Positions 30,635 through 46,238 of a stretch of DNA of 50,334 nt are shown here, in pieces. The translations under genes were made by a program, and so were the position numbers. The stretch is taken from assembly GCA_030156255.1 (NCBI GenBank), contig JASGMV010000027.1, positions 1-50,334 on the forward strand. The letters run 5' to 3'. The notes under the pieces were generated by a model. The model saw only the letters and a list, made by a program, of their open reading frames with translations. It was not told where the DNA came from and did no database searches. Positions within the stretch are counted from its first letter, which is position 1. Each line of letters opens with the position of its first letter. The DNA is from Desulfovibrionales bacterium. GTDB lineage: Bacteria > Desulfobacterota > Desulfovibrionia > Desulfovibrionales > Desulfovibrionaceae.

Positions 30635-30683
30635 GATAAAAAAGCCCCGCCGTCCGGAAACTGGACGGCGGGGCTTTTTTATC
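30635..30683. terminator. Bidirectional intrinsic terminator
   Basis: Perfect 21-bp arms GATAAAAAAGCCCCGCC.../...GGCGGGGCTTTTTTATC surround a 7-base loop, with a run of T on both strands. It ends the mla operon from the left and the ppiD/acn operon from the right. Confidence 0.95.
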
Positions 30684-39610: not shown

Positions 39611-39643
39611 CGGCTGCGGGCCTTCGGGCCCGCAGCCGTTCTT
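39611..39643 (+). terminator. Intrinsic terminator after aprA
   Basis: CGGCTGCGGGCC and GGCCCGCAGCCG form a perfect 12-bp stem closed by a TTCG tetraloop, followed by TTCTTTT. It should end or reduce aprBA transcription before qmoA. Confidence 0.88.
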
Positions 39644-44573: not shown

Positions 44574-45242
44574 ATGGCTGAAGCAAAGGTTTTCCCCATG
44601 AGCACCTTCGTGGCCTGCCTGCGTGAGAACGACACCTCCGACGCCGGAGTGGTCGACTTGCTGGGCTTCTTGACCAACGCCACCGTGTCCGAAGAGTTTG
44701 CTCCGTTCGCCGCGGCGTTGTCCAAAGCCTGGGTCTACGAGCAGAATCCCGAGCTGACCAAAGCCAGCAAGAGCGAGATCGCGGGACTCGGCCAGAAGGT
44801 TTCCATCAACTCCATGAGCGGCGCATCCGCGGAACAGGCGAAGGCCGTCCTCGAGAAGCTCGTGGAGCTCAAGAAAGAGAACGAAGCGTTGGTCGCGAAG
44901 GCGGCCGAGCTCGAAGCCCAGAACAAGGCCTTGAACGAGGCCAAGATCCAGGCCGAGGGCAAGCTGAAAAAGTACGAAACCCAGGCCGCTCAGGGCGACG
45001 CGAAGCTCGAAATGTCCGGTAAGAAGGTCGACGAATACCTCAAGAAGGTGACCGAGCTTCTGGACCAGATCGAGAAAGTCAAGAAGGAAGGCGTTGTCGT
45101 GGCCGGAACCGGCGCTCCCGGCGAAGCCGGGGCCGCTGCTGCGGACGGAGACGCGGCCGGCGCTCCGGCCCAGGAAGACGCCGGCTCCGACTTCGGTTTC
45201 GGCGGCGGGGCTTCGGACCCGTTCGCGGACTCCAGCTGGTAG
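44574..45242 (+). CDS. qmoD: QmoD-like protein, fourth gene of the qmo operon
   Basis: The 222-residue soluble protein has a helical N-terminal domain (about 1-85), a long coiled coil (about 90-165, AKAVLEKLVELKKENEALVAK onward) and a Gly/Ala/Asp-rich tail. It lies 45 bases after qmoC with AAGGAGG upstream. In Desulfovibrio vulgaris the gene in this position (DVU0851) is called qmoD and is reported to matter for sulfate growth; assignment here rests on position and general character. It has no cofactor motif. Confidence 0.8.
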   Translation: MAEAKVFPMSTFVACLRENDTSDAGVVDLLGFLTNATVSEEFAPFAAALSKAWVYEQNPELTKASKSEIAGLGQKVSINSMSGASAEQAKAVLEKLVELKKENEALVAKAAELEAQNKALNEAKIQAEGKLKKYETQAAQGDAKLEMSGKKVDEYLKKVTELLDQIEKVKKEGVVVAGTGAPGEAGAAAADGDAAGAPAQEDAGSDFGFGGGASDPFADSSW

Positions 45243-45264
45243 GACCGCATCGCATTTTGCATGT

Positions 45265-45374
45265 AAGGCCTTCGGCGCCCCGGTTTGGACCGGCTGCGAC
45301 TGGTCCGAACCGCCCTTGAGCGGCGATGTCCTGGCGCTGTCCGTCCGGGGCGCTGAAGGCCTTTATTTTTTTCG
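45265..45374 (+). terminator. Large nested stem structure with T-rich tail after qmoD
   Basis: Outer arms 45265-45283 and 45345-45363 pair over 19 positions with one G-T type mismatch (AAGGCCTTCGGCGCCCCGG with its near-complement). Inside, CGGTTTGGACC (45281-45291) pairs with GGTCCGAACCG (45302-45312), and a smaller CCGC/GCGG stem follows. TTTATTTTTTT comes directly after the outer arm. It should terminate the qmo operon; the internal fold is far larger than a terminator needs. Confidence 0.75.
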
Positions 45375-45426
45375 CTCATCGTGCTTTCGAGCCGGGTTCT
45401 CCGGCGGTGTTGATAACAACTGTGTT

Positions 45427-45439
45427 ATTTCACTGAAAT
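45427..45439. promoter_or_regulatory. Short palindrome upstream of livG
   Basis: ATTTCACTGAAAT is symmetrical around one central base and lies in the AT-rich 100 bp before livG. It could be an operator for the transporter operon. No regulator can be named from the sequence. Confidence 0.3.
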
Positions 45440-45482: not shown

Positions 45483-46238
45483 ATGGCGACTCTTGCACTC
45501 AACGACATCAGCGTTCAGTTCGGCGGCCTCCAAGCGCTCAGTGAAGTTACTTTTACGCTGCATCCGGGCAGCATCATGGGGCTGATCGGTCCGAACGGCG
45601 CTGGAAAGACTACGGTCTTCAACGTGATCACCGGCGTTTATCGGACTTCGGGAGGCAGCGCGACCTACGACGGCGCCAGCATTCTCGGCCGCCGCCCGCA
45701 TGAAGTGCTCGCCATGGGCGTCGCTCGCACCTTTCAGAACATACGCTTGTTCCAGAACATGAGCGCTCTGGAGAACGTGATGGTGGCGCAGCACTGCCGC
45801 ACCAAGGCCAAGGTTCTGGCGGCCGTTCTGAGGAGCCCGGCCCAGCGGCGGGAGGAGGCGCGGATACGCGAGAAGGCGCTGGAAGCCTTGGAGTTCATGG
45901 GGTTGGGCGACAAGGCCTATGAAGTCGCCTCCAACCTGCCCTACGGATTGCAGCGGCGTCTGGAGATTTCCAGGGCGCTGGCGAGCGAGCCCTCCACCAT
46001 TCTTTTGGACGAACCCGCCGCCGGACTCAACCCGGCGGAAAGTTATGGACTCATGGAGTCGATCCGCCGGATTACAACCCGAGGCGTCAACGTGTTGATG
46101 GTGGAGCACGATATGAAGGTCGTCATGGGCGTTTGCGACGCCATCGTCGTGCTCGACCATGGCGTCAAGATTTCCGAAGGCAAGCCTGAGGAGATTCAAC
46201 GGGACCCGGCGGTGATCGAAGCATATCTCGGCAACTGA
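45483..46238 (+). CDS. livG: Branched-chain amino acid ABC transporter ATPase LivG
   Basis: The 251-residue ATPase has Walker [13 protein letters not shown], a variant signature [15 protein letters not shown], Walker [14 protein letters not shown] and the LivG-type C-terminus ([26 protein letters not shown]). It is one of two ATPases for leucine/isoleucine/valine uptake. The ATG at 45483 was preferred over upstream TTG and GTG codons; no clear ribosome binding site precedes any of them. It is the first gene of the operon, 240 bp after qmoD. Confidence 0.93.

Follow-up and report, generated by a model that had tools for sequence, protein, structure and literature searches.

A probable intrinsic terminator with an enlarged tip behind the qmoABCD operon of a Desulfovibrionales bacterium

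Our results suggest that the structure lying behind qmoD in a Desulfovibrionales bacterium of the family Desulfovibrionaceae is very probably the intrinsic (Rho-independent) terminator of the qmoABCD operon, carrying an enlarged apical region. The stretch analysed, called here the window, comprises 50,334 nucleotides (nt; GenBank assembly GCA_030156255.1, contig JASGMV010000027.1, positions 1 to 50,334), and the element is a 99-nt inverted repeat at 45265-45363, placed between the qmoD stop codon (45240-45242) and livG (from 45483) and followed by a T tract. We read it as a terminator because of its position, this T tract and the plain terminators predicted at the same place in relatives; termination itself is what these features predict. 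The hairpin tip has probably gained the 61 extra nt enclosed by the stem through an insertion or expansion specific to this lineage. The parts of the element, all on the + strand, are as follows.

45265 to 45283, + strand: 5' arm of the outer stem, the predicted terminator stem (folding and stem search).
45345 to 45363, + strand: 3' arm of the outer stem (folding and stem search).
45364 to 45372, + strand: T tract TATTTTTTT, the putative U tract of the terminator (sequence).
45284 to 45344, + strand: apical insert of 61 nt, standing where the relatives' predicted terminators have their short loop (stem search and flank comparison).
45282 to 45311, + strand: inner hairpin of 10-12 pairs with a 6-nt loop; its foot and the outer stem's tip compete for bases (folding and stem search).

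The initial annotation of this DNA had described a stem of 19 base pairs (bp) and a T-rich tail, and both stand. By sequence, the two arms form 19 pairs without interruption, 14 of them G-C and one G·U, and the longest uninterrupted stem in 500 dinucleotide shuffles reached 15 pairs. The minimum-energy fold keeps 18 of the 19, one G going to the inner hairpin. The 110-nt element folds at -63.9 kcal/mol, compared to a shuffle mean of -43.63 (standard deviation 3.72; z -5.45), and none of 200 shuffles was as stable. As required of an intrinsic terminator, this GC-rich stem stands immediately before the T tract, which includes a run of seven T at 45366-45372, and the whole lies behind the last gene of the operon on the transcribed strand, its start at +23 leaving 22 nt between stop codon and stem. 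As expected of a palindrome, the opposite strand folds too (z -5.47). On that side, as read from the sequence, the stem is not followed by a T run, so termination is expected for transcription of the + strand only.

In support of the terminator reading, the 3' flanks of qmoD in relatives carry plain terminator-like hairpins at the same place. The flanks were collected through qmoC, from 59 genomes including the one under study (55 with a match, several through the N-terminal iron-sulfur part only; no other genome of its own genus is among the genomes listed) and from 80 further loci in named genomes. A relative of qmoD was found by tblastn at 76 of the 112 qmoC-matching loci, a count that includes duplicates as well as the copies from the window; the other 36, without a qmoD match at E <= 1e-5, were left out. 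After dropping five loci (L018, L050 and L058, too short; L044 and L071, without a stop codon) and merging nine duplicates, 62 distinct flanks remained, the window included. Under a lenient rule (loop of at most 10 nt, span of at most 45 nt, followed by T's, otherwise permissive), 60 of the 62 have a short hairpin-plus-T site, the window and L087 being the two without. The median start of these sites is +27 from the stop codon, with quartiles at 24 and 37, and 56 of them start within 100 nt; they have a median span of 29 nt (22-44), a median of 12.5 pairs and a median loop of 4 nt (3-7). Because several of these matches are doubtful (L065 at +306, L080, and L033 at +186), a stricter rule was also set; it places a site in the first 130 nt of 53 of the 62 flanks, whereas ten rounds of shuffles gave 1.1 of 62 on average. 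The window itself has no short terminator by the lenient rule within 350 nt after qmoD, and its element, at +23, starts about where the sites of the relatives do. L043, whose qmoC is the closest among the relatives (66% identical by tblastn), has a plain hairpin of 12 pairs followed by T's at this place, the same flank occurring at L010, and aligning its qmoD-livG spacer to the window revealed no evident counterpart of the insert.

Several observations weigh against this reading. The initial annotation had also held that the structure exceeds a simple terminator, and this is borne out: it spans 99 nt and encloses 61, an interior far larger than that of usual terminators, compared to the median span of 29 nt and loop of 4 nt in the 60 flanks with a short site. 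In the parts of a Term-seq study that bear on this point, the median terminator loop is 4 nt in each species and the rule of the program TransTermHP is given as a loop of at most 13 nt and a stem-loop of at most 59 nt (PMC12207403); by these figures the qmo element is atypical and falls outside the short-loop rule. Note that the TransTermHP limit is one program's search rule and not a mechanistic requirement; the element is still an atypical terminator. A pattern scan with loops of 3-8 nt found just a 5-pair hairpin inside the 3' arm (45347-45363). In a sample of 450,334 bases, formed by the window and 20 sampled stretches of the same genome (400,000 bases), long-span hairpins followed by T's matched 25 times, compared to 19 in one shuffle. 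The qmo element is the only match in the sample with at least 14 G-C pairs, the single longer one (20 pairs) having 8, and it appears to be an outlier among the terminators of its own genome rather than a member of a class. Another long-span match, at L123:14374-14525, has 14 pairs (11 G-C), a span of 152 nt and the tail TTTTTTCA.

Elsewhere in the window, 30642-30676 forms a palindromic terminator-like hairpin, with 16 and 14 pairs on the two strands and TTTTATCG after the stem on each; it is possibly a bidirectional terminator.

What lies inside the stem looks different from the stem itself. An 11-bp inner stem, a further small stem and a folded RNA domain had been proposed for this region. 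The first is there, as a hairpin in 45282-45311: the insert by itself provides 10 pairs, the minimum-energy fold has 11, and two G's lent by the outer stem bring the number to 12. Small stems, two of 4 bp each, occur in the minimum-energy structure and are absent from the centroid, which retains the outer stem and the inner hairpin only. The proposed domain is not borne out: folded alone, the 61 nt give -21.4 kcal/mol, compared to a shuffle mean of -20.3 (z -0.38), with 630 of 2000 shuffles as stable. Adding one flanking base per side brings z to -1.18, with 255 of 2000 shuffles equally stable or more so, and a stem of at least 10 pairs arose in 46 of 1000 shuffles of the insert. Thus, the interior is about as structured as GC-rich DNA gives, and it is the outer stem that goes beyond chance.

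The element also appears to stand alone. The initial annotation had raised the question of other copies, and blastn against the own genome at E <= 10 returned no second copy, just 28 other matches, all of 15-25 nt; the seven of these viewed by eye with their flanks have no such hairpin. In the genomes of 58 other relatives no credible homologue was found, with at most 13 candidates scored per genome among the matches listed; three weak matches of 32-35 nt (E 0.002-0.01) came up. A search of 287 other genomes of the family likewise gave no credible homologue, only two matches of 26-32 nt (E about 6e-4 per genome), with at most three candidates scored per genome among the matches listed, so few that a weak homologue could be missed. 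The five weak matches (L144, L040, L042, L041 and L145) were considered as homologues and are taken as chance. Each of the five places is spanned, on either strand, by an open frame of between 284 and 786 codons; judged by eye, we take L144 and L040 to be dikinase-like and L042 to resemble a substrate-binding protein. Searching 801 bases against Rfam gave five matches at E <= 10, all far short of the gathering scores, the best being EBER1 at 14.2 bits, compared to a gathering score of 50. With no energy excess, second copy, credible homologue or Rfam family at threshold, the extra sequence gives no sign of being a selected RNA domain, as far as sequence can tell.

These results bear directly on the idea that the fold is the body and terminator of a stable small RNA, cut from or starting in the 3' end of the qmo transcript, with a functional insert. 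The strong fold and the U tract would suit such an RNA, and any terminator-ended 3' untranslated region can leave a stable 3' fragment. We nevertheless consider it quite unlikely, since the insert is no more structured than its shuffles, the blastn, homologue and Rfam searches were all negative within the limits given above, and just 22 nt separate the qmoD stop from the stem. A stable 3'-derived RNA of the kind left by any terminator is possible; nothing in this analysis favours it. Going further, a lineage-specific RNA domain in the tip of the qmo terminator could be released as a stable 3'-derived small RNA and couple other genes to the expression of the sulfate-respiration complex, a proposal that we regard as very unlikely. 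The literature search found no paper on a qmo terminator RNA among the titles and abstract openings of the matches listed, and a term search did not find 'qmo' in the main text of the Oleidesulfovibrio noncoding RNA paper (PMC11124144).

Another possibility could be that a palindromic mobile element of small size makes up the 99 bp, either a miniature inverted-repeat transposable element (MITE) or one resembling repetitive extragenic palindromes (REP), which replaced the terminator and whose 19-bp ends are terminal inverted repeats. Near-perfect inverted ends do flank unrelated sequence here, as this would predict. Repeats of these kinds are expected in several copies, and the single copy that blastn found in the genome argues against them, as do the absence of a clear target-site duplication in the flanks (read by eye) and the presence of a T tract in an element that occupies the place of the relatives' terminators. 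We thus judge a mobile origin of this sort highly improbable.

How would a terminator with such a tip work? The inner hairpin would fold first as the polymerase leaves qmoD, drawing the arms nearer to each other; the 3' arm would then emerge and the 19-pair GC-rich stem would zip up; and the polymerase would let go of the transcript at the U tract, which would keep qmo apart from the liv transcription unit downstream. Note that the motif GGCGCTG is present twice, 16 nt apart, in the insert (45333-45339) and in the 3' arm (45349-45355), so that the 5' arm has two possible partners. Folding 45265-45344, which lacks the 3' arm, gives -35.5 kcal/mol, with the inner hairpin and a provisional 7-bp helix between 45273-45279 and the insert copy of GGCGCTG. 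The fold of 45265-45363 reaches -63.8 kcal/mol, the 3' arm adding about 28 kcal/mol. The provisional helix is uncertain, because it is missing when the fold starts at 45243 and so includes the 22 nt upstream (45243-45344, -41.0 kcal/mol).

This helix, formed before the 3' arm exists and with a copy of the arm's own motif, would be the main point in favour of regulation between qmo and liv by an attenuator or a read-through switch, in which the insert would be the sensing domain. That it disappears once the upstream sequence is included, and that the 3' arm contributes so much more energy, both speak against a switch. In addition, no homologue of the insert is at hand to show that its sequence has been retained, and we saw no functional tie between the qmo and liv operons. 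Regulation of this kind is extremely improbable in our estimation. The preferred reading, a terminator with an enlarged tip, asks of the insert just that it be tolerated, and this may be so because stem and U tract are intact, which would make the extra sequence effectively neutral. An origin of the insert by template switching is conceivable (compare PMC8794818).

The genes on either side of the element are these.

44574 to 45242, + strand: qmoD, last gene of the qmoABCD operon (open reading frame; position and homology).
45483 to 46238, + strand: livG, first gene of a branched-chain amino acid ATP-binding cassette (ABC) transporter cluster (NCBIfam match).

No NCBIfam model matched qmoD, which is named from its position and homology. 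Upstream, AprA and QmoC are named by NCBIfam, and the pair of genes in between gives matches to HdrA models that fall short of the cut-offs, as expected if they encode QmoA and QmoB. Between aprA and qmoA, at 39611-39638, there is a 12-pair terminator-like hairpin of textbook form with the loop TTCG, so that apr and qmo may be transcribed wholly or partly apart.

On the other side, the best match of livG is NF008449 (LivG) at 283.5 bits, below the curated cut-off of 362, and a LivJ-like protein downstream also matches NCBIfam below the cut-off; livG is taken as the start of the next transcription unit. In L043, L064, L075, L073, L060, L113 and L054, qmoD is followed at a distance of 250-1010 nt by a livG relative of the same orientation, any intervening genes left aside. 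From this shared gene order, the qmo-liv neighbourhood is therefore probably old. The AT-rich stretch before livG contains, at 45413-45439, the overlapping dyads ATAACAACTGTGTTAT (45413-45428) and ATTTCACTGAAAT (45427-45439). They may form an operator for the liv cluster and are not evidently retained in the spacer alignment with L043.

By itself the element is of little importance beyond probably marking where the qmo transcription unit ends. It also serves as a fair example of a putative terminator that programs with a limit on loop length would miss, and if termination is true, a terminator stem is able to carry about 60 nt at its tip.

As occurs with the qmo terminators predicted here in other Desulfovibrionales, the element follows qmoD and combines a GC-rich stem with a T tract; it differs from those 60 short sites in having 19 pairs and 61 enclosed nt, compared to their medians of 12.5 pairs and a 4-nt loop. 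Its dimensions agree with a class of large bacterial stem-loops, defined by loops of 5-100 nt, that a survey describes as concentrated 3' of genes (Petrillo et al. 2006, PMC1590033). The shared features are a stem of at least 12 bp with G-U pairs allowed, a loop of 5-100 nt and a place 3' of a coding sequence, and the source groups such stem-loops by survey criteria, not by homology. Strong secondary structures that were hard to sequence, one of them 28 bp long, are described at gene junctions of Desulfovibrio ND132, and their authors suggest that they may act as strong terminators (PMC3409199). In the available text of that paper they lie at other genes, no qmo site is described and qmoABC occurs just once, in the title of a reference. 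Finally, hairpin-cluster terminators, as outlined in the portion of the paper drawn on here, likewise place more than one hairpin right after the stop codon (PMC8355165). Those hairpins stand side by side and are mostly short, whereas in the window one hairpin is nested within a long outer stem.
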